A stretch of 64,000 nucleotides of DNA from Mycobacterium decipiens. Lineage in GTDB: Bacteria > Actinomycetota > Actinomycetes > Mycobacteriales > Mycobacteriaceae. How positions within the stretch are numbered: the stretch's first letter is position 1; every line of letters starts with the position of its first letter. The notes below the pieces were generated by a model. The model did not search any database, was not told where the DNA came from, and saw only the letters and a program-made list of their open reading frames with translations. The stretch lies in NCBI RefSeq assembly GCF_963853665.1, contig NZ_OY970459.1, positions 4,960,001-5,024,000 on the forward strand, read 5' to 3'. Positions 27,963 through 38,198 of the stretch are shown here, one piece after another. The position numbers and the translations under genes are program-made.

Positions 27963-28322
27963 GATGATTGTTCCTTCGATTCGAAAATTGATGCGCTGCG
28001 GGGTGCCCGATCCCCGGAACCCAAAGTAGCTCAAGCGAAAGCGCACCGCCCTTCCGATATTCGCGTGCGACGAGCAACTATTTCGCGCGGAAACTGATGA
28101 ACCCGTGACAAGAGCAACTCGAGTGACAGTTCTGGTTAGACGGACAACCAAATCGACACGCCAATAGTGAGAACTCTTAGAGATGAGCCGTGGTTCTTAG
28201 CTGATCGTGACGAAACCGTGATCGGTGGGTGCGCCGATGCGGCGTTGCCGCCGGCATCCCGGCTACCGCCCCGCGCCGAGGAGTAGCGTTCCACGCACCG
28301 GGTAGTGGAGGGAGAACGAATC
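27963..28322. other. Divergent intergenic region between hemophore gene and DyP cassette
   Basis: A 360-bp non-coding stretch, AT-richer than its surroundings between about 27990 and 28220. It should contain both promoters. An imperfect inverted repeat AGAAC...GTTCT lies at about 28171-28198 and could be an operator. No gene seen. Confidence 0.4.
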
Positions 28323-28883
28323 ATGGCGGCCACCGACCACGACTGGAGCAAACCCGCTGCGATGGCCATCCCCGCGGAGGGCTACTTCGAGCTCCAGCGC
28401 GGCAGATATGGCCCAGTCTTTCCTAAAACACCCGCTTGCCACGGATTCTCCATCATCGCCAAGGTCAAGCCGGGGCGTGAAGCCACGATTCGCGAGTACG
28501 GCAAGGTGATTCAGGCCGCAATCGAAGCCGACCCGGACCTGTTGGCGCCACTGCGGCTGCACTACCTGCGCTGGGTGCTATTCGATGCGGGCTTCGGACT
28601 GCACTTTCAGTACCAAGGCATATTCGATACCGATTTCGACAAGTACACCGAGGACGCGATCAAGCTGTTCTCGCAGTCCGGCGTCACCACGGTTTTCACC
28701 AACCTGGAAGGCTTCCCGGACGACTGGCAGACCAACCCCGAGGCGTTCATCGAGTTCGTCCGGGAGCACCAATTCCCCAGTTTCCTCGAGTACGGGGAGT
28801 ACCCCTATGTGACGGCCGACGAGGTCAAGAAGGCGCTTCGGCTCAAGGCCGCCTTCTCCGACATGCTCGACCAGATGCAGTAG
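28323..28883 (+). CDS. Uncharacterised protein of the DyP-peroxidase cassette
   Basis: 186 aa from the ATG at 28323, with GGAGGGAGAAC at good spacing; a GTG six codons upstream overlaps that ribosome-binding site. There is no signal peptide or TM segment. The segment HGFSIIAKVKPGREATIREY followed by LRLHYLRWVLFDAGFGLHFQ looks like a ferredoxin-like alpha/beta fold, similar to the proteins I recall beside some DyP peroxidases, but I do not know a function. It is 21 bp upstream of the DyP gene on the same strand. Confidence 0.7.
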   Translation: MAATDHDWSKPAAMAIPAEGYFELQRGRYGPVFPKTPACHGFSIIAKVKPGREATIREYGKVIQAAIEADPDLLAPLRLHYLRWVLFDAGFGLHFQYQGIFDTDFDKYTEDAIKLFSQSGVTTVFTNLEGFPDDWQTNPEAFIEFVREHQFPSFLEYGEYPYVTADEVKKALRLKAAFSDMLDQMQ

Positions 28884-28904
28884 TTCACCAACCCCGGTGC
28901 ATCG

Positions 28905-30239
28905 ATGCTTGACCTCGAAAACATCCAGCACATCGTCACAACGCGGACACCCGCGATGACCGGGCGCTACGAATTCCTGTCGTTCGACAACCCGGCAGGC
29001 GGGCGCGCGTGGCTGGGCGAACTGGTGGACAAGGTCCAGTCGGCGGCCGATGCCCGGCGGACCATGGACAGCACCGATCGCTGGGTCACGCTCGCGTTCA
29101 CCTTCACCGGCCTGCGGGCGCTGGGGGTCTGCGAGGAATCGCTGGCCACCTTCCCAGACGAATTTCGGGAGGGCATGGCCGCCCGCGCGGACATCCTGGG
29201 TGACACCGGCGCAAATCATCCGGACAACTGGGTGGGCGGATTGGCCGGCAACGATCTCCACGCGATCGCGATCTTGTTCGCTCGCAACGATGCTGAGCGC
29301 CGACGCTGCGTCACGGTCCACGCCGACCTGATCGCACGCTGCCCCGGTGTGCGGGTGCTGTCCTTTCTCGATCTGAACGCGACGCCGCCGTTCAACTATG
29401 CACACGATCATTTCGGCTTCCGAGACCGATTGTCGCAACCGGTGATCGAAGGTAGTGGCGAGGAGCCGACACCGGGGTCCGGCGGACCGTTGAGACCCGG
29501 AGAATTCATCCTCGGCTACCCCGATGAGGACAATGTAGTCGCGAATCTGCCTCAGCCAGAAGAGTTGTCGCGCAACGGCAGCTACCTGGCCTACCGACGG
29601 TTGCGGGAGCACGTCGGCCTGTTCCGCAGTTACCTGGCTGAGCACACCGATACCCCGGCCCGGGAGGAGCTTCTTGCCGCCAAGTTGATGGGCCGGTGGA
29701 AAAGCGGGGCACCACTGGTTCTGGCACCCGAGCACGACGATCCCGAACTCGGTGCGGATCCGCTGCGTAACAACGACTTCAACTACAAGGAAATGGACCC
29801 CTTTGGATATGCGGTACCGCTGGGCTCGCACATCCGGCGACTTAACCCGCGCGACACGGCGGTCAATATGAACCGGCGGCGGATGATACGGCGCGGAGCG
29901 ACCTACGGCGAGGCCCTTCCCGACGGAGCTCCCGACGACGGCGCTGATCGAGGTATTGCCGCGTTCATCATCTGCGCAAGCCTGGTTCGGCAGTTCGAGT
30001 TCGCGCAGAATGTCTGGATCAACGACCGCAACTTCCACGAACTTGGAAACGAACGCGATCCGATCTGCGGAACACAAGACGGCACACTGGAATACAAGAT
30101 TCCGACGCGCCCCATCCGCAAAGTTCTCAAAGGGCTACCCGCCTTCACCACGCTGACCGGCGGAGCGTACTTCTTCCTGCCAGGCCGCAACGGCCTCAGC
30201 TATCTGGCCTCCCTCAACACACAGAGACCGCACCCATGA
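28905..30239 (+). CDS. DyP-type heme peroxidase family protein
   Basis: 444 aa. DyP peroxidases use H2O2 to oxidise dyes, phenolics or other bulky substrates. The family marks are the distal-side motif HFGFRDRLSQP (normally GxxDG, here GFRDR), the proximal heme-ligand His in PLGSHIRRLNPRD (about residue 310), and the RRRMIRRGATYG segment near 330 with the catalytic Arg. No Tat or Sec signal is present, so it is cytoplasmic or encapsulated; no encapsulin gene is adjacent. It ends ATGA-overlapping with the next gene. It belongs to the larger, insert-containing DyP class rather than the short B type. Confidence 0.85.
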   Translation: MLDLENIQHIVTTRTPAMTGRYEFLSFDNPAGGRAWLGELVDKVQSAADARRTMDSTDRWVTLAFTFTGLRALGVCEESLATFPDEFREGMAARADILGDTGANHPDNWVGGLAGNDLHAIAILFARNDAERRRCVTVHADLIARCPGVRVLSFLDLNATPPFNYAHDHFGFRDRLSQPVIEGSGEEPTPGSGGPLRPGEFILGYPDEDNVVANLPQPEELSRNGSYLAYRRLREHVGLFRSYLAEHTDTPAREELLAAKLMGRWKSGAPLVLAPEHDDPELGADPLRNNDFNYKEMDPFGYAVPLGSHIRRLNPRDTAVNMNRRRMIRRGATYGEALPDGAPDDGADRGIAAFIICASLVRQFEFAQNVWINDRNFHELGNERDPICGTQDGTLEYKIPTRPIRKVLKGLPAFTTLTGGAYFFLPGRNGLSYLASLNTQRPHP

Positions 30240-31270
30240 GCAGCACAAGCACTTCCCGGCCCGCGCGCACGTACAACCAGGCGCACCTTCCCCGTCGGCA
30301 TACCCGAGGTCGCCGGCGCATGAGCATCTATTGGACCTGGAGCTATCCGTGGGAATCGCAACGTGATCCGGCCGCGATCGACAACAGGTTCTCCACCATG
30401 ACCGAGGTCCGCAGAGTGGCCTGGCCGAACTACGAGACCCGGGAGTGGGACCAGACGCACTTCCTGCAAGGCATCGCCGGCACCCTGGAGCTGTTCCATC
30501 GTTCGACGCTGGCGTTTCAAAGTCTGGCCGGGGAGGTAACCGGTCACCCGGTGGCGGTATTCCAGCGCATCGACCAAGCCGGCTACCGGCTGCCGATCGA
30601 CGAGCGGATACTGGCCGACACCGACACCTTGCTGGTGTTCGGTCTCGATCACGTGCTCGGCCAGGACGAGGCGCAACCCGATGAGGTCGACGCGATCCGG
30701 GACTGGCTGCAGCGGGAAGGCACCTGCCTGCTGCTGGCCCCGCATCATGACGTCGGATTCACCGACGACATGACGCAACGCCAGGTCGAGTATCTACACC
30801 ACGGCGATCCGCTGGTGGGGCGCCAGCAACGCTTCAGTCAATACACCCGCTCCCTGATGAGGGCGCTCGACGTTCCCGTCTACAACAAATGGGGGTTGCG
30901 TCCGGCAGTTGTCCCGCAGGCCGACGACAGCAACCAGATCGCTCCGCTGACCGGTTTTCGCGACCTGGACACGCCGCGACTTCTCGACAAGGTCACCACC
31001 TTCAACTTCCACCCTCACCTCCCGCACTACGAGCTAACGGCGCCAGCGGGCGATGGCCTGCGCGTGCTGGCCCGGCAACGGGTCGATCCGACGCGACCCC
31101 ATCCGTTCACCGCGGCGGGAAACACCGAGTTCAATGCGCTTATCTGGATGCCGCCCGACGGCCGCCGCGCCGGCGACATTGTGCTGGTGGACTCCACAAA
31201 TTTCACCACGCTTTTCGGTGGCACCGCGAGCCTGGTGAACTTCTGGCGGAACGTCTCGCTGATGCAGTAG
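30236..31270 (+). CDS. Uncharacterised protein of the DyP-peroxidase cassette
   Basis: 344 aa from the ATG at 30236, which overlaps the DyP stop by 4 bp; an internal ATG at 30320 (MSIYWTWSYP) would drop a basic N-terminus. The centre reads as alternating strands and helices, with DTDTLLVFGLDHVLG and WLQREGTCLLLAPHHDVG reminiscent of the flavodoxin-like or glutamine-amidotransferase-like folds. I cannot see a catalytic Cys-His pair. Its coupling to the DyP gene implies a shared process; the function is unknown. Confidence 0.7.
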   Translation: MSSTSTSRPARTYNQAHLPRRHTRGRRRMSIYWTWSYPWESQRDPAAIDNRFSTMTEVRRVAWPNYETREWDQTHFLQGIAGTLELFHRSTLAFQSLAGEVTGHPVAVFQRIDQAGYRLPIDERILADTDTLLVFGLDHVLGQDEAQPDEVDAIRDWLQREGTCLLLAPHHDVGFTDDMTQRQVEYLHHGDPLVGRQQRFSQYTRSLMRALDVPVYNKWGLRPAVVPQADDSNQIAPLTGFRDLDTPRLLDKVTTFNFHPHLPHYELTAPAGDGLRVLARQRVDPTRPHPFTAAGNTEFNALIWMPPDGRRAGDIVLVDSTNFTTLFGGTASLVNFWRNVSLMQ

Positions 31271-31285: not shown

Positions 31286-31654
31286 CTATCCGTTGAGCCT
31301 GCCGTCCCGCACGCCGGTCAAGGCATCGTCCAGCGTCGGATACAACGGAAAGGTCTTGTCCAAACCCGTCAGGTGAATCGGTCTTCTGGTGGCCGGACTC
31401 CGTGCGACCACCCCGAATTCGGCGGATTCGCCGATTTTCTCGTATGTTGCCGCCAAAATCTTAAGCCCCACCGAGCCAAGAAATTCCACCGCGGAAAGGT
31501 CAATGACCAACGCCGTCGGATTATCTGCAATCACTGAACCGATGGCTTCTTCAAGGGCTGGAGCGGTGACCAAATCAATTTCGCCGCCGATGCTGAGCAC
31601 GGCGACCCCGTCGTGGTCGGCCACCGTGGCGGTGATCGAATCAGGAGCTGACAA
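31286..31654 (-). CDS. rsfB: Anti-anti-sigma factor of the SigF pathway
   Basis: Orthologue of Rv3687c, 122 aa from the TTG at 31652-31654 (LSAPDSITATV) preceded by AAAGGAT; this equals the known length. It is a single STAS domain with the phosphorylatable Ser in LSAVEFLGSVGLKIL. In M. tuberculosis RsfB binds the anti-sigma factor UsfX (RsbW) and frees SigF, and phosphorylation blocks this. It is divergent from a complete stressosome operon here, an arrangement that gives it plausible upstream regulators. Confidence 0.92.
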   Translation of the reverse strand: MSAPDSITATVADHDGVAVLSIGGEIDLVTAPALEEAIGSVIADNPTALVIDLSAVEFLGSVGLKILAATYEKIGESAEFGVVARSPATRRPIHLTGLDKTFPLYPTLDDALTGVRDGRLNG

Positions 31655-31821
31655 TGGCGATCCTTTGTCCGAGCCGTCGGTGTGGTGCAAGCCTAGCCTG
31701 CCCGGCGAACTGCGAGAAGAATATGACGTCAACACCTCGCAGGGGGCCGGGCCAGGCTAGTCTCGCCATAGGACCCGCGCCCTGCGGAGCGCGACGCGCA
31801 CTGGAGGCCTTGGGAGGGTAA

Positions 31822-32715
31822 ATGTCTGATCCGGCGATAGACCTCAGCGGCGCCCACCCCAGCGCGCATATGGTCGGCGTTTCCAGTGAGGGATTGCTGC
31901 CACAGCTGGTGCAGCACCTGCGGCAGAATCGCACCGCGTTGCGCGAGAAATGGGCGCGAAGTATTACCGAGGCGGAGTTGCTCACCGCGATGACGCCCGA
32001 AGAAATCTTCTCCGAAGCGACCGCCGTCTACGACAACTACGTCGGCGTGCTCGAGACCGGAAGCGTCGAAGCGCTACAGGCGTACGCGCGCGACCTGTCC
32101 GAACGCATCATCCCGCGCGGCGTCGAGACCGACGAGGTCGTCGGTATCGTTCTGCTGCTGCGTGACGTGCTGGGGCGCTCGCTGTTCGAGAAATACCAAA
32201 CCAACTTCGAGATGCTCAACCGCGTCCTGGACGCTTACGAGCCGGCGGCTAACCGCATCGCCAATACGGTGGCCGTCAGCTTCGTGCAGGAACGCGAGCG
32301 GGTCATCCGCCAACAGCAAGAAGCCATCCGCGAGCTGTCGACGCCGGTGCTGCAGGTGCGCGAGCAGCTGCTGATTCTGCCGATCATCGGTGTGCTGGAC
32401 AGCCAGCGCGCCCGCCAAGTCACCGAACAGCTGCTGCGCGCCATTCGGTCCAACCGGGCAAAGGTCGTCGTTATCGACATCACCGGTGTGCCCACCATCG
32501 ACTCCACGGTGGCAAACCACCTGGTGCAGACCGTCGACGCATCGGGGTTGATGGGGGCGAGCGTGATCATCACCGGCCTGTCCTCCGAAATCGCGTTGAC
32601 GCTGGTGACGATCGGGTTGGATCTCTCGAAGATGAACGCCGTCGGTGACCTGCAGGGCGGCATCGAAGAAGCCGAGCGCCTGCTCGGCTACGAAGTCACT
32701 CGCACGGGTGAGTAA
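31822..32715 (+). CDS. rsbR: Stressosome sensor/scaffold RsbR paralogue
   Basis: 297 aa, ATG at 31822 behind GGGAGGG. An N-terminal all-helical globin-like RsbR domain (about 25-170: LRQNRTALREKWARSI, TDEVVGIVLLLRDVLGRSLF) joins a C-terminal STAS domain (about 175-290) through a helix. The STAS core reads VVIDITGVPTIDSTVANHL. By hand alignment Ser228 and Thr260 (EIALT) fall where B. subtilis RsbRA carries Thr171 and Thr205, the RsbT phosphorylation sites. RsbR and RsbS co-assemble into the megadalton stressosome. First gene of a five-gene operon. Confidence 0.9.
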   Translation: MSDPAIDLSGAHPSAHMVGVSSEGLLPQLVQHLRQNRTALREKWARSITEAELLTAMTPEEIFSEATAVYDNYVGVLETGSVEALQAYARDLSERIIPRGVETDEVVGIVLLLRDVLGRSLFEKYQTNFEMLNRVLDAYEPAANRIANTVAVSFVQERERVIRQQQEAIRELSTPVLQVREQLLILPIIGVLDSQRARQVTEQLLRAIRSNRAKVVVIDITGVPTIDSTVANHLVQTVDASGLMGASVIITGLSSEIALTLVTIGLDLSKMNAVGDLQGGIEEAERLLGYEVTRTGE

Positions 32716-32745
32716 ACCGCAAAGGACAGCCACCAAGGGCAGCCC

Positions 32746-33138
32746 ATGCCAGTACCAATCCTGAAACAGGGCGCGATTCTTATCGCCAGTGTGCAAGCCG
32801 CACTCACCGACTCCGATACCGAACGCCTGCGCCACGATCTCATGGAGCGGGTCGGCCGGTACCGTGCGCAGGGCATCATCGTCGACGTCACCGCCATCGA
32901 CGTGATGGATTCGTTCGCGGCCCGCTCGCTGCGGACCATTGCACACATGACCCGGCTGCACGGCGCCACCACCGTGATCGTGGGCGTGCAGCCGGAGGTG
33001 GCCTTTGCGATGGTGCAACTGGGCCTGACATTCGAAGACATCAGTACCGCGCTGGACCTGGAAGAGGGCATAGCGCTGCTGAACAAGCTACTGGGGCTGG
33101 GGAAACCGACGATCGGGCGAGACGGTGCCCTCGGGTGA
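32746..33138 (+). CDS. rsbS: Stressosome scaffold protein RsbS
   Basis: 130 aa, a stand-alone STAS domain. Starts MPVPILKQGAILIASVQAAL, typical of RsbS. The phosphorylation site is Ser56 in AIDVMDSFAARSL, matching Ser59 of B. subtilis RsbS. It holds RsbT in the unstressed complex. It is 30 bp after rsbR and overlaps rsbT by 14 bp, as in classical rsbRST modules. Confidence 0.93.
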   Translation: MPVPILKQGAILIASVQAALTDSDTERLRHDLMERVGRYRAQGIIVDVTAIDVMDSFAARSLRTIAHMTRLHGATTVIVGVQPEVAFAMVQLGLTFEDISTALDLEEGIALLNKLLGLGKPTIGRDGALG

Positions 33139-33538
33139 AATCGTGGTCGACATTGGCAATCCCGACGATATCGTCGCCGCCCGCAAAGCCGGACATCAGC
33201 TCGCGCTTGACCTCGGCTTCTCGCTGACCGATGTGACCATGATCGCGACCGCTATCTCCGAAGTCGCACGCAATATCACCAGCTACGCGGGCCATGGCGC
33301 GATTCGGGTTGCGGTGGCCACCCGGGAGGGCCGCAAGGCGCTGGTGGTCCGCGCCGAGGACGAAGGTCCCGGCATCGCCGACATCGAGCGGGCGATGGAG
33401 GACGGGTACTCGACCGGCCGCGGGCTCGGCATGGGCCTGCCCGGAGCACGGCGCCTGATGGATCGGTTGATCGTGGAATCCGCCCTGGGCCGCGGGACGG
33501 TTGTCGAGATGTGGAAATGGGTTCCATCCCGTGCGTGA
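33125..33538 (+). CDS. rsbT: Stressosome serine/threonine kinase RsbT
   Basis: 137 aa from a GTG at 33125. GHKL-type kinase with N-box AISEVARNITSYA, G1 box DEGPGI and G2 region GLGMGLPGARRLMD. In the known system RsbT phosphorylates RsbR and RsbS on stress, leaves the complex and activates an RsbU phosphatase. It overlaps both neighbours, so the subunits are probably made in fixed ratio. Confidence 0.93.
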   Translation: MPSGEIVVDIGNPDDIVAARKAGHQLALDLGFSLTDVTMIATAISEVARNITSYAGHGAIRVAVATREGRKALVVRAEDEGPGIADIERAMEDGYSTGRGLGMGLPGARRLMDRLIVESALGRGTVVEMWKWVPSRA

Positions 33539-34157
33539 TCACGGCCGCTTCGGGCCGATCGAGTGGGCGACCGCCGGACGCCCACGGCCAGGGCAGCAAC
33601 TCTGCGGCGACCAGCCGATCGCGGTCGACATCGACAGCGACACCGCCTTATTCGGCGTGCTGGACGGACTCGGTCACGGCCCGGCTGCCGCCAGCGCGGC
33701 GCTGACCGCGGTGGACGTGCTCACCAACGCCCGCGGCGAGCGACTCGAGGTCTTGATCCAGCTGTGCCATCGCGTGCTGGAGGGCACCAGGGGGGTCGCG
33801 ATGACCCTGTCGCGGGTCGATTTCAGCACCGGCAAGATGAGCTGGACCGGGGTGGGGAACGTCACCGCCAACTTGGTCGCCAAGGCTGTCAGCGGTGTGC
33901 AAATCCGCGCCTGTGCGCGTTTGGCCAACGGTATTGTTGGCTACCGGATTCCGGAGATTACACCCGCGAAACTGGTTCCCATTCGCACCGGCGACCTGCT
34001 CGTCATCGCCAGTGATGGCATTTCCGGCGAGCACCTGGACCATATCGACTTCGCGGCCTCGGCCGCCGATATCGCCGAGCAGATTTTGGCCAAGCACGCC
34101 AAGGCTGCCGATGATGCCGTGGTGCTTGCCGCGCGTCACCGGGGTATCCCGACATGA
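33531..34157 (+). CDS. rsbX: RsbX-like PP2C phosphatase
   Basis: 208 aa from a GTG at 33531 overlapping the rsbT stop; a TTG at 33501 would add ten residues. A single SpoIIE-type PP2C domain: FGVLDGLGHGPAAASAAL, WTGVGNVTANLV, DLLVIASDGIS, then DDAVVLAARH, giving the metal-binding Asp set. In B. subtilis RsbX removes phosphates from RsbR and RsbS and resets the stressosome. Position straight after rsbT supports that role. It overlaps the next gene by 4 bp. Confidence 0.88.
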   Translation: MRDHGRFGPIEWATAGRPRPGQQLCGDQPIAVDIDSDTALFGVLDGLGHGPAAASAALTAVDVLTNARGERLEVLIQLCHRVLEGTRGVAMTLSRVDFSTGKMSWTGVGNVTANLVAKAVSGVQIRACARLANGIVGYRIPEITPAKLVPIRTGDLLVIASDGISGEHLDHIDFAASAADIAEQILAKHAKAADDAVVLAARHRGIPT

Positions 34158-36382
34158 CCTACACCGACGACTTCCGCGCCCACTACAGCGCCGCGCTGCG
34201 TAACTACCTGGACACCCGCGACGAGGACAGCCTGGCCGTCGGGCATGAGCTCGGGCGCCGGGCCCTGCAGGAGCAGATCAGCGTGCTCGACATCGTCGAG
34301 AACCATGTCCGGCTGATCAATGAGCTTGCGAAGGATCCCGCCGCCGACGGGCCGATCGCATTGGAGTTCCTGTTGCAGACGCTGGCCGCGCTCGACGTCG
34401 CGACGCGGGGATTTCTCGATGGCACCAGGCGCTACGAAGAACAGCGGGCCCGCGCCGAGGGTCTGGCCGATCGCGACAAGTTCCGCACCGCGCTGGTGAA
34501 TTCGTTGCAGGAGGGCTTCTTCGTCGCCGATCACGACGGTGCGGTGATCGACATGAACAACGCCTTCGCCGAGATTCTCGGCTATCCCCCGGAGGGCCTG
34601 CCGTACCGGTGGCCGCACCCGTGGCTGGTCGACAAACAGGCCGCGGCCGCGCAACAGGAGCGGGTGCGGCGGGACGGCAGCGCCGAGTACGAAACCCCGA
34701 TCCGGCATCAAGACGGCCATCTCGCCTGGGTGACGGTTAGCATCAACGCGGTCCGGGGCGCCGGCGCCCATCGGGACGTGTACGTCGGAACGGTTCGCGA
34801 CATCACCGCGGAACGGGCTTTTGCCGCCCGAGAAAGCGCGGCCCTGCGACTGGCTACGGCCGTCGCTGTGGCCAGGAGCGTGGCAGAGGTGCTGTCGATC
34901 ACCCTCGAGGAGTGCCGAGCCGCGGTCGACGTGAAGCGCGTCATAGCGGTCATATGGCCACCGGGTGACGGCGAGCCGACCGTACAGGTCGCGGGCGATC
35001 CGTCCGTATCAGCTTGGCGCGAACTGGATCCGTTGTTGCGCCAGACATTTCAGGATGCCCGTCACCAGCTGCCACTGACGGCCCGACCTATCGAGTGGCC
35101 AGACACTCCAGGCAAAGCACAGGGAATGGTCGCGGTGCTGTCCGGCACCGCAGACGTGGCGTTGTGGCTGGAGCTTCGCGCACCCCGCTGGGTGATCGCG
35201 GAGGATCGGCTCCTGGTCACGGTCCTCGTCGGCCATCTGAGTCTGGCCATCCGGCACGTCCGCCAATTCGAGAGCGCACGCGAGACGTCGCTGACGTTGC
35301 AGCGCGCGATGCTGCCTTCGGTAGCACCCCCACCAGGCTTTGCCGTTCGCTACGAACCCGCCGTGCCACCGCTCGAGATTGGGGGCGACTGGTATGACGT
35401 CCTGCCGATCGGTGAGCACCACATCGGCATCGTCGTCGGGGACTGCGTGGGTCGTGGTTTACCGGCCGCAGCGATCATGGGGCAGCTCCGCAGCTCGGCG
35501 CGAGCACTGATGCTGACCGGCGCCAAACCGGCGCTGTTGCTCGAGCAGCTCGATGCGGCGGCCTCGCTCATTCCGGATGCGTACTGCACAACGGTATTCC
35601 TGGCGATCCTTGACACCGAATCCGGGCTGCTGGAGTACAGCAACGCCGGCCACATGCCAGCCTTGCTCGCCGAGGCCGGGTCCGAATCCGAGTCCGGCTC
35701 GGGCGCAACGTCGTTGACCGACGCTCGGTCAGTGCCACTGGCGGTCCGCCGCGACGAGCCGCGTCCGCAAGCATCCCGGGTGCTGGGCCCGGGCTCGACA
35801 CTGATCCTGTTCACCGACGGGTTGGTCGAGCGCAAGCACGAGTCGATCGACGACGGCCTTTCGCGGGTCGCAGATGTCTTGCTGGACACGGTGCAGCTAC
35901 CCATCGCGGCTGTCGCCGATGCGATGCTGCGCCGGTTGGCCCCCGAGGGGGGATACGACGACGACGTCGCAATCGTCGTGTACCGGCACCAACATGCGCC
36001 GCTGCGAATCGAAAGTGCCGCTACCGCAAATCAATTGGCCAGCATTCGACGTCAGCTCACCGCATGGCTGCGAACCGCCGCCGTCCCGGACGCGCAGATC
36101 ACCGACATCGTGCTCGCTGTCAACGAGGCGTGTACCAACATTATCGAGCACGCATACCGCGGACATAGCGTCGGGACGATGCTGCTCAAGGCGCAAGCCG
36201 TTGCCGGTGAAATCCAGCTGCGGATCAGCGATTCCGGCTCATGGAAACCACCGGACACCGATCCCGGCAACAGGGGGCGAGGCCTGCTGCTGATCAAAAC
36301 CATCAGTGACTCGGTAGCACTGGACAGCACCCCAGCCGGAACCACTGTCGACATCACTTTCCGGCTAGCCCGCGGCGACTAG
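34154..36382 (+). CDS. RsbU-like multidomain protein: sensor-PAS-GAF-PP2C phosphatase-GHKL kinase
   Basis: 742 aa. Domains in order: an N-terminal helical RsbU/RsbR-type domain (about 1-92) that in RsbU binds RsbT; a PAS domain (about 108-220, ending YVGTVRDITAER); a GAF-like region (about 235-375); a SpoIIE PP2C domain (about 385-612) with GGDWYDVL, GDCVGRGLPAAA, FTDGLVER and YDDDVAIV; and a C-terminal GHKL ATPase (about 615-742) with VNEACTNIIEHAY and RGRGLLLIKTISD. It could both dephosphorylate and phosphorylate an anti-anti-sigma factor. Related in design to M. tuberculosis Rv1364c, but without a STAS domain, which the nearby rsfB could supply. Confidence 0.9.
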   Translation: MTYTDDFRAHYSAALRNYLDTRDEDSLAVGHELGRRALQEQISVLDIVENHVRLINELAKDPAADGPIALEFLLQTLAALDVATRGFLDGTRRYEEQRARAEGLADRDKFRTALVNSLQEGFFVADHDGAVIDMNNAFAEILGYPPEGLPYRWPHPWLVDKQAAAAQQERVRRDGSAEYETPIRHQDGHLAWVTVSINAVRGAGAHRDVYVGTVRDITAERAFAARESAALRLATAVAVARSVAEVLSITLEECRAAVDVKRVIAVIWPPGDGEPTVQVAGDPSVSAWRELDPLLRQTFQDARHQLPLTARPIEWPDTPGKAQGMVAVLSGTADVALWLELRAPRWVIAEDRLLVTVLVGHLSLAIRHVRQFESARETSLTLQRAMLPSVAPPPGFAVRYEPAVPPLEIGGDWYDVLPIGEHHIGIVVGDCVGRGLPAAAIMGQLRSSARALMLTGAKPALLLEQLDAAASLIPDAYCTTVFLAILDTESGLLEYSNAGHMPALLAEAGSESESGSGATSLTDARSVPLAVRRDEPRPQASRVLGPGSTLILFTDGLVERKHESIDDGLSRVADVLLDTVQLPIAAVADAMLRRLAPEGGYDDDVAIVVYRHQHAPLRIESAATANQLASIRRQLTAWLRTAAVPDAQITDIVLAVNEACTNIIEHAYRGHSVGTMLLKAQAVAGEIQLRISDSGSWKPPDTDPGNRGRGLLLIKTISDSVALDSTPAGTTVDITFRLARGD

Positions 36383-36384
36383 GC

Positions 36385-36849
36385 CTATAGGCGGTCCTTT
36401 ACCGCCGTGGACAAGCGTGCGCCGTCGGCCTTCCCGGCCGCGATCGCGGTGGCCGCCTTCATGACCAAGCCCATCTGTTTCACGCCGGGCCGGTGCCCGA
36501 GTTGTTCGGCCACCTCGGCGATGGCGGTGTCGGCGACATCGGCCAGTTCTGCTTCGGTAAGCGGCGTCGGGAGGTACTCGTCAATGATTCGCGCCTCGGC
36601 ATGCTCGGTGGCGGCGAGCTCACCACGACCGTTCTGGGTGTAGATCTCCGCTGCCTCGCCGCGCTTGCGGGATTCCCTGGCCAGCACCTTGAGCACCTCG
36701 TCCTCGGAGAGCTCTCTTACCTGCTTGCCGGAGACTTCCTCGGTCTGGATCGCGGCGAGCAGCATGCGTAGAGTCGCGGTTCGCAACTTGTCCTGCGTCT
36801 TCATCGCCTGGGTCAGGTCCGACCGAAGCTGGGATTTGAGTTCCGCCAT
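36385..36849 (-). CDS. GatB/YqeY-domain protein
   Basis: Orthologue of Rv3688c, 154 aa from the ATG at 36847-36849 (MAELKSQLRSDL); the frame runs on upstream through the antisense of a repeat and is not used. YqeY domains resemble the tRNA-binding tail of GatB and are linked to tRNA-dependent amidation. Motifs: TATLRMLLAAI and RPGVKQMGLVMKAA. It is convergent with the stressosome operon, 2 bp apart. Confidence 0.9.
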   Translation of the reverse strand: MAELKSQLRSDLTQAMKTQDKLRTATLRMLLAAIQTEEVSGKQVRELSEDEVLKVLARESRKRGEAAEIYTQNGRGELAATEHAEARIIDEYLPTPLTEAELADVADTAIAEVAEQLGHRPGVKQMGLVMKAATAIAAGKADGARLSTAVKDRL

Positions 36850-36977
36850 GGCAAAGACGCTACGCGCCGGAACGGCCGGAGCCCGACATCGAGACCTACC
36901 TTGAGACCTACGTTGAGAAATGCACCGACCGCCGACAGGATGGAGCCCATGACGAACGACGACAGCCGCTTCACCCG

Positions 36978-38198
36978 GTGAGCACGCTGCCGCCTGGTTA
37001 TCCGGGTGAACCACCGCCCGGCTACGGCCCGCCGCCCGGCTACGGCGCGCCACTCGGTTACGCCCCACCGCCGGGCTACGGGGCGCCGCCCGGTTACGGC
37101 CCACCGCCGGGCTACGGGGCGCCGCCCGGTTACGGCCCACCGCCCGGTTACGGCCCACCGCCCGGTTACGGCCCACCGCCCGGCTACGGCCCGCCGCTCA
37201 TCCCGGGTGCGGTCAAACCAGGAATCATTCCGCTGCGACCCTTGACCCTCAGTGACATCTTCAACGGCGCGGTCGGCTACATCCGCGCCAACCCAAAGGC
37301 GACGCTGGGATTGACCGCCATAGTCGTGGTCATCATGCAGGTGATCTCGCTGGTGGCCACGGTCGGCCCCTTGGCCGCCTTCGGCGACTTCGCGACCGCG
37401 GAGCGCGACGAGCTGACCGGCGGTTTGGTGGGTGCGTGGGCAGCGTCAATCGGTGCCAGTCTCCTGGTCAGCTGGCTAGGCGGCGTGCTGCTCAGCGGAA
37501 TGCTCACCGTCATCGTCGGGCGGGCAGTGTTCGGTTCCCCGATCACCGTCGGCGAAGCGTGGGCCAAGGTCCGCGGTCGGCTGCCCGCGTTATTCGGCCT
37601 GGCGCTGCTGGAAGCGGCCGGAGTGGTGGCGCTTATCGGGCTGGTGGTCGTGATACTTTTCGGGGTCGCAACGGCCGCCAACGGCGCGGCGGCGGCCCTT
37701 CTCGGCTTCCCGCTGCTGCTCATGGTCGGGGTGTTGCTGGCCTACCTGTACGTCGTGCTGTTGTTCGCACCCGTACTGATCGTGCTGGAACGGCTACCCG
37801 TCGTCGAGGCGATCATCAGATCCTTTGCGCTGGTACGGCATGGCTTCTGGCGGGTCCTGGGAATCCGGCTGCTGACGGCCCTCGTGGTGGGCATCGTTGG
37901 TAATGCGATCGCGGCTCCGTTCACCATCGTTGGCCAGATACTGATGGCCGCCACAACGTCCGACGGGTCGGTGACCATGCTGCTCGCCGGCGCTACGCTA
38001 TCGGCCATCGGCGGGACGCTAGGCCAAATCGTCACCGCGCCATTCAGCGCCGGGGTGGTGGTGCTGTTGTACACGGACCGCCGCATCCGAGCCGAGGCCT
38101 TCGACCTGGTGCTGCAGACCGGCTTGCAAACCGGCCCGCCCGGCGGGCCCGCGGCGGTGGAGTCCACCGACAACCTCTGGCTCACCCGGCGCTTCTAA
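36978..38198 (+). CDS. Pro/Gly/Tyr-repeat membrane protein
   Basis: Orthologue of Rv3689, 406 aa as read from a GTG at 36978. The N-terminus (about 5-75) is a dozen copies of PPGYG with few variants. The rest has about six TM helices (TAIVVVIMQVISLVATVG, LLVSWLGGVLLSGMLTVIV and later), resembling membrane domains of the YciC/GlpQ-like type; the function is unknown. The GTG lacks a ribosome-binding site and overlaps the TGA of a ten-codon frame starting at an ATG at 36949 (GGATGGAGCCC upstream). This means either coupling to a mini-ORF or a frameshifted N-terminus. Confidence 0.8.
   Translation: MSTLPPGYPGEPPPGYGPPPGYGAPLGYAPPPGYGAPPGYGPPPGYGAPPGYGPPPGYGPPPGYGPPPGYGPPLIPGAVKPGIIPLRPLTLSDIFNGAVGYIRANPKATLGLTAIVVVIMQVISLVATVGPLAAFGDFATAERDELTGGLVGAWAASIGASLLVSWLGGVLLSGMLTVIVGRAVFGSPITVGEAWAKVRGRLPALFGLALLEAAGVVALIGLVVVILFGVATAANGAAAALLGFPLLLMVGVLLAYLYVVLLFAPVLIVLERLPVVEAIIRSFALVRHGFWRVLGIRLLTALVVGIVGNAIAAPFTIVGQILMAATTSDGSVTMLLAGATLSAIGGTLGQIVTAPFSAGVVVLLYTDRRIRAEAFDLVLQTGLQTGPPGGPAAVESTDNLWLTRRF
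37005..37195 (+). repeat. In-frame PPGYG-coding repeats
   Basis: Tandem 15-18-bp units such as CCGCCCGGTTACGGCCCA, about a dozen copies, encode the Pro-Gly-Tyr-rich N-terminus of the membrane protein. Near-identical neighbouring copies suggest recent slippage or unequal crossing-over. Confidence 0.85.

Follow-up and report, generated by a model that had tools for sequence, protein, structure and literature searches.

An intact stressosome operon beside rsfB in Mycobacterium decipiens and its probable repeated dismantling among relatives

The rsb operon and related systems

The window, a 64,000-nucleotide stretch of the Mycobacterium decipiens genome (contig NZ_OY970459.1, positions 4,960,001 to 5,024,000), carries a stressosome operon, rsbR-rsbS-rsbT-rsbX-rsbUW, that diverges from rsfB, the gene of an anti-anti-sigma protein. 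The operon is of a known kind. What is new is its history, most likely that of an ancestral module of the family which was taken apart on many occasions. A sequence-only reading had placed an RsbR-RsbS-RsbT-RsbX-RsbU operon at 31822–36382, divergent from rsfB; the coordinates were confirmed, and so were the identities, by Pfam families and solved structures. Its description of five overlapping genes was accurate for three of the four junctions; rsbR and rsbS are separated by 30 bp. The features, with lengths in amino acids (aa), are as follows.

31286..31654, minus strand: rsfB, anti-anti-sigma (STAS) protein, likely start TTG 31654, 122 aa; STAS match E 3.8e-21
31655..31821, no strand: divergent intergenic region between rsfB and rsbR, with two promoter-like elements
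31822..32715, plus strand: rsbR, 297 aa, predicted globin-like N-domain and STAS domain (Pfam, solved-structure matches, predicted structure)
32746..33138, plus strand: rsbS, 130 aa STAS protein with Ser56 at the phospho-site (Pfam, solved-structure match)
33125..33538, plus strand: rsbT, 137 aa GHKL serine kinase and RsbU activator (Pfam HATPase families; N, G1 and G2 boxes by eye)
33501..34157, plus strand: rsbX, PP2C-type phosphatase, uncertain start (TTG 33501); SpoIIE family E 3.4e-9, 3zt9 E 3.6e-19
34154..36382, plus strand: rsbUW, 742 aa fusion (Pfam, predicted structure, Rv1364c 3ke6 E 2e-41)

RsbR matches the RsbR chains of stressosomes (best 9o3o, E 4.2e-30; 7b0u of Listeria innocua, E 7.3e-30), and its predicted structure (confidence score pLDDT 78) consists of a globin-like domain and a STAS domain. 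A role as a canonical haem sensor was rejected because residues 33–170 contain no histidine despite the globin-like predicted fold. Ser194 and Ser228 occupy the two known threonine phospho-sites, at which Listeria and Bacillus RsbR have Thr; Ser194 is replaced by Gly in 6 of 15 rows from other genera. RsbS matches Listeria RsbS (6qcm, E 7.5e-26), and Ser56, which had been read as lying in a phospho-site context, aligns with a serine of that chain. RsbT belongs to the GHKL ATPases, and its N, G1 and G2 boxes look intact in alignment. RsbX matches both 3zt9, the SpoIIE/RsbX-like phosphatase of a stressosome study, which we take to be from Moorella, and RsbX 3w40 (E 2.3e-9). The locus therefore holds the parts that define a stressosome: an RsbR with a sensor N-domain and STAS, an RsbS with a phosphorylatable serine and an RsbT with all three nucleotide-binding boxes.

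The last gene had been read as an RsbU-like output phosphatase. RsbU_N and PP2C domains are present, but the protein is more than this, being an RsbU_N-PAS-GAF-like-PP2C-GHKL kinase chain, known in the literature as ‘rsbUW’. RsbU_N lies at 34181–34402 (Pfam E 4e-20; the sole RsbU_N match in the genome), PAS at about 34484–34804, the GAF-like part at about 34880–35188, PP2C at about 35414–35989 and the RsbW-type kinase, whose motifs look intact by eye, at about 36017–36358. In the predicted structure (mean pLDDT 82) RsbU_N is a bundle of helices, and PAS, a GAF-like domain, a long linker helix, PP2C and the kinase follow it in turn; the GAF-like alpha/beta domain (about residues 243–345) has no Pfam match and is predicted from the secondary structure of this model. 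Two loci of one other genus (L220 and L221; G426 and G396) encode an RsbUW that lacks about residues 230–366, the GAF-like part, with the flanking matches continuing in one frame. At L167, L168 and L188 a separate RsbW-like kinase stretch, 37–39% identical to the RsbUW kinase domain, lies just downstream of rsbUW.

The most likely start of rsfB, TTG 31654, leaves an rsfB-rsbR intergenic region of ~167 bp, and the resulting 122-aa form matches solved chains over residues 1–122 (4qtp) and 1–121 (8ih8, the UsfX-RsfB complex). Its predicted phospho-site is Ser61, by counting; the M. smegmatis counterpart is Ser63. Two elements in the intergenic region, at 31687–31701 facing rsfB and at 31755–31764 facing rsbR, are preserved across most of the 16 aligned regions and may be promoters. 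Autoregulation of the operon by SigF was rejected, as the SigF promoter consensus occurs in only 2 of 100 rsfB-rsbR intergenic regions, the window not among them.

The rsb operons of Bacillus subtilis and Listeria share with the window the RsbR-RsbS-RsbT core, an RsbX-type phosphatase and RsbU_N on the output phosphatase. Unlike them, the window has RsbU and RsbW fused with PAS and GAF-like domains between, a divergent rsfB in the role of RsbV, sigF elsewhere in the genome, and Ser at the Thr phospho-sites of RsbR. In the cyclic di-GMP stressosome of the Moorella and Vibrio type the operon includes a GGDEF output gene; no GGDEF domain was found among the 10 locus proteins scanned with Pfam. 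Another kind of stressosome occurs in two mycobacterial genomes, at L162 (2461–6601) and L163 (5512–9754, minus strand), where PAS-PAS-RsbR, RsbS and RsbT are followed by a kinase-phosphatase fusion and then by a GGDEF-like protein (L162) or a histidine kinase (L163), the domains being named by eye.

The nearest solved relative of RsbUW, M. tuberculosis Rv1364c (3ke6; 29% identity in the fold match), likewise joins PP2C and an RsbW-type kinase in one chain with PAS in front (PMC12143880); the window protein differs in having RsbU_N in front and no C-terminal STAS domain, and Pfam gave no STAS match anywhere in its 742 residues. M. smegmatis has a histidine kinase gene and a PP2C gene, the RsfSR system, near rsfB-rsbW2, so that a histidine kinase and a receiver-PP2C stand in place of the stressosome and rsbW2 is separate (PMC10950880, PMC7693655). 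There RsfB is controlled through phosphorylation of Ser63 by RsbW2, and no RsfB phosphatase had been published at the time, according to PMC7693655; the PP2C of RsfSR is reported, with data not shown, to act on RsfB (PMC10950880, PMC7693655).

The sequence-only reading had presented the module as an unreported sensory branch. The same genes had in fact already been reported from M. marinum and the majority of slow growers in a survey of 244 genomes, and are stated to be absent from the tuberculosis complex, M. leprae, M. ulcerans and others; RsbR, RsbS and RsbT of M. marinum interact pairwise and form foci (PMC8115616). No member of the tuberculosis complex was recognised in the genome sets searched here, the 80 named loci included, so for that group the absence is taken from this survey. 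The M. marinum operon (rsbR MMAR_5182, rsbS MMAR_5183; its gene order is known to us from these two locus tags) has the same set R, S, T, X and UW, with RsbR and RsbS of 298 and 129 aa against 297 and 130 aa in the window, and apart from the species we found no substantial difference. We infer that the rsbV of the published operon is rsfB.

Coupling to rsfB across the genus and family

Among 297 genomes of the genus, RsbT matched at E 1e-10 or better in 115. Two of these (G279 and G157; 42–43% RsbT identity) carry another kind of stressosome and were excluded, leaving 113 genomes with window-type RsbT, and in 113 of 113 rsfB shares the contig of rsbT and lies on the strand opposite to it, 1348–1507 bp away in 106 genomes and 219–392 bp in seven. 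The stressosome module that had been proposed next to rsfB is supported as complete and apparently functional, and its coupling to rsfB is tight. RsbU_N was found in 123 genomes, comprising all 113 and ten without RsbT; in nine of these ten it scores 26.4–48.5 bits, the lowest value in genomes with RsbT being 50.6.

Named loci were reached through rsfB, and of the best 80 among 98 of them 74 have all five genes matched by tblastn; under a stricter open-frame filter rsbX of L049 and rsbR of L056 fail. Of the remainder, L067, L089 and L100 run into contig ends within or next to the operon, L112 lies on too short a contig to tell, L101 has rsfB alone in 9.2 kb and L116 has rsbUW alone. In the wider family, RsbT was found in 29 of 221 genomes, spread over 7 of 31 genera; 24 of these genomes belong to six other genera. 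Nineteen of the 24 loci were viewed: 18 are complete for the five genes (RsbT of G426 reads with one in-frame stop) and one is cut by a contig end. An RsfB-like STAS gene lies nearby in 14 of the 19. It follows rsbUW downstream, in the same orientation in 11 and on the other strand in one, and is divergent in two, so the divergent position is not universal.

The module had been placed at the junction between rsfB and the Rv3688c-like gene. This tight arrangement is common to the window, G029 and G105, which together with M. simulans are the nearest RsbUW tree rows to the window, but the Rv3688c-like gene is 2.8 to 44 kb from rsbT among 16 genomes measured. In the window this YqeY gene (36385–37176) is listed as an overlong 263-aa frame; since the family match starts at residue 114, its true start is near 36858. 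Beyond rsfB lie three genes at 28305–31270 (unknown, Dyp-type peroxidase-like and unknown), a trio that in relatives is near the locus in either orientation or was not seen and that resembles a passenger cassette. L246 (7699–9920; G089, a small genome of 3.2 Mb) seems to hold a decaying copy, with fragments of rsbX and rsbUW spread over several frames next to Dyp fragments. At L170, in the single-contig 5.6 Mb genome G026, the Rv3688c-like gene is 92% identical and the 19 kb read gave no rsfB or rsb match.

The coupling bears on which protein the module serves. The genome has one SigF-family sigma factor above the curated cut-off, at C1:1195222, just behind a marginal RsbW-like match (C1:1194743; 27.3 bits against a cut-off of 27.4, or 29.1 with neighbours). 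One alternative is that the stressosome is real and mainly targets a STAS protein other than RsfB and hence not SigF, such as RsfA or an Rv1364c-like STAS domain. The genome has 11 STAS matches, RsfB, RsbR and RsbS included, and a 659-aa frame with kinase and STAS matches like Rv1364c. RsfB moreover diverges at the same pace as the other parts of the output arm. Median identities to other genera (17 loci, 13 for RsfB) are 97% for RsbR STAS, 87% for the RsbR N-domain, 78% for RsbS, 69% for RsbT, 57% for PP2C, 54% for RsbU_N, 49% for RsbX, 46% for PAS, 45% for RsfB and 43% each for the GAF-like part and the kinase. Against this target stand the divergent adjacency of rsfB in 113 of 113 genomes and its retention with rsbUW after stressosome loss, in 20 rsfB-rsbUW loci, of which two are one contig, and in 7 rsfB-rsbT-rsbUW loci, and we regard it as unlikely.

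Identity thus declines along the pathway; the sensor is the most conserved part, yet the sensor is what lineages shed.

Loci that keep rsbT and lack the sensor core

In seven genomes (G261, G183, G208, G232, G068, G170 and G125; loci L150–L156), five of them single-contig, rsfB is followed across the short gap by rsbT with rsbUW directly after. None of the seven has a match to RsbR or RsbS (E 1e-6, with the C-terminal half of RsbR as query) or to RsbX (E 1e-3), the control genome G327 being positive in each search. Comparison with the full operons of relatives revealed remnants of rsbR, rsbS or rsbX in six of the seven. L155 retains rsbR codons 1–12 and 64–94, the end of rsbS, and rsbX codons 1–19 and from 206; at L150 rsbR is left with its start and end, rsbS with its two ends, and rsbX with its start and, against two of three relatives, its end. 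Remnants at L154 are similar to those at L150, L152 and L153 have fewer, L156 has one rsbR piece and the rsbX start, and L151 has no convincing remnant of the three genes. Part of the retained rsbX start overlaps rsbT and was therefore kept along with it. The pattern points to separate deletions on either side of rsbT, with endpoints that differ between loci.

RsbT in these species could be a non-functional leftover awaiting deletion. An arginine beside the catalytic asparagine, possibly a substrate contact at a guess, is found in all 115 other loci that were scored but is changed in 3 of the 7 (Fisher p 1e-4, uncorrected for relatedness and for genomes present twice); two divergent-system loci that did not match the pattern were left out of the scoring and also show R. 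Yet the frame is open and the N, G1 and G2 motifs are present in 7 of 7, RsbU_N scores at least 55 bits in all seven, and the ratio of non-synonymous to synonymous substitution rates (dN/dS) for the six genomes computed (G183 left out) is 0.11–0.18 in the G208/G232/G068 clade, 0.06–0.11 for G170 and G125 against their sisters and 0.14–0.23 for G261 against relatives, compared with 0.02–0.19 in full-operon pairs. RsbT is thus under purifying selection in all six (0.06–0.23), and a decaying leftover seems doubtful.

No locus was seen in which the sensor half survives without RsbT, apart from contig-end cuts, with RsbT and RsbU_N rather than RsbR and RsbS as the queries across the whole genus. 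The module falls into two separable halves, one for sensing and reset (R, S and X) and one for output (T, UW and RsfB), of which the output half can survive alone. In the literature covered, with most subscription papers outside it, we found no description of RsbT without RsbR and RsbS.

History and proposed pathway of the module

The RsbUW tree was built by a quick method from 84 rows out of 143 RsbUW sequences over 650 columns, with the RsbU_N columns removed and the root placed on 14 rows from other genera that we chose and that form one group (support 100). It omits L067, L089, L100, L101, L112, L162, L163, L170, L173, L175, L177, L181, L182 and L245–L248, which have no usable RsbUW row, together with L229, which has two RsbUW pieces in different frames; L116 and L183 are the same contig, and L041 and L187 have identical RsbUW. 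RsbT-only rows nest among full-operon rows, as with G170 beside the full G278 (support 99) and G125 with the full G214 and G146 (support 100). Five changes are needed, starred branches force five, and a single RsbT-only clade was rejected (p-AU 2e-4). Rows with rsbUW alone form a clade of 12 without detectable RsbU_N and a clade of 7 with weak RsbU_N, while L116 sits among full relatives with a good RsbU_N (64 bits, as G199). RsbT was thus lost in three events, in two of which RsbU_N is weakened or undetectable; RsbR, RsbS and RsbX were lost with RsbT retained in five, with RsbU_N at 55 bits or more in each of the seven genomes. Because the sister group of the 12-row clade is an RsbT-only one (support 87), its ancestors may have gone through an RsbT-only state.

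The published view is that mycobacteria acquired the operon after slow and rapid growers split, although the same paper found no evidence of horizontal transfer (PMC8115616); elsewhere the module would never have arrived. It is missing from most rapid growers and from the M. chelonae clade (PMC8115616), and 182 of 297 genus and 192 of 221 family genomes gave no RsbT match. A late gain is nevertheless made improbable by the full operons of six other genera and of deep branches of the genus in the tree, and by the remnants in six of seven reduced loci. Between loss and gain, which had been left as alternatives, loss is favoured: because six other genera carry the full module and reduced forms nest among full ones, it is most likely ancestral in the family, with many losses.

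We put at roughly 75% the reading that the window holds an intact, ancestral stressosome operon feeding RsfB and SigF, whose RsbT has become a standing co-activator in at least five lineages. By analogy with Bacillus, Listeria and M. marinum, RsbR and RsbS would assemble; stress sensed by RsbR would lead RsbT to phosphorylate RsbS at Ser56 and be released, with RsbX resetting the complex, a role called hypothesised for Listeria RsbX (PMC8765406). Free RsbT would activate RsbUW, as RsbT activates RsbU through the N-domain and linker (PMC12143880), and RsbUW would dephosphorylate RsfB, whose unphosphorylated-serine form, judging from M. smegmatis and M. tuberculosis work, would bind the anti-SigF factor and free SigF. 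The kinase domain of RsbUW probably re-phosphorylates RsfB, which would place both opposing activities in one protein. That this domain is instead an anti-sigma factor binding SigF directly, as Rv1364c is reported to do in vitro (cited in PMC7693655), has little to recommend it given the division of kinase and anti-SigF roles between RsbW2 and RsbW1 in M. smegmatis (PMC7693655) and the intact-looking kinase motifs.

In lineages that have shed RsbR, RsbS and RsbX, RsbT probably acts as a standing co-activator of RsbUW and no longer as a released messenger: it stays when the sensor core and RsbX are lost, and RsbU_N, its binding domain, is worn or gone in two of the three events of RsbT loss. 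We lean slightly towards RsbT as a permanent activating subunit of RsbUW in at least five such lineages, with sensing by the PAS and GAF-like domains and with loss of RsbT freeing RsbU_N to decay.

Several points weigh against the pathway and history favoured here. The event counts are small, the RsbT-only set is seven genomes, and the tree is a quick one-gene tree with some long branches and root rows of our choosing. G261 has the highest RsbT dN/dS, and G183 shows no rsbR or rsbS remnant. The control RsbS matched at only E 1.2e-11 against the limit of 1e-6, so a diverged lone RsbS could be missed, and genomes with RsbR and RsbS but neither RsbT nor RsbU_N would escape a genus-wide search for the latter two. 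No SigF-type promoter consensus lies upstream of the operon, other RsbW-like and STAS proteins of the genome could share the role, and the link from RsbUW to RsfB is drawn from adjacency and analogy with M. smegmatis.

Mycobacteria survive stress under the control of SigF, whose input in species that lack a stressosome is stated to be open (PMC8115616). The history argued here would reverse the published late acquisition into repeated loss. The reduced operons are natural gene-removal experiments that split sensing from output, and they make testable both the action of RsbT alone and the role of RsbUW as the RsfB phosphatase.

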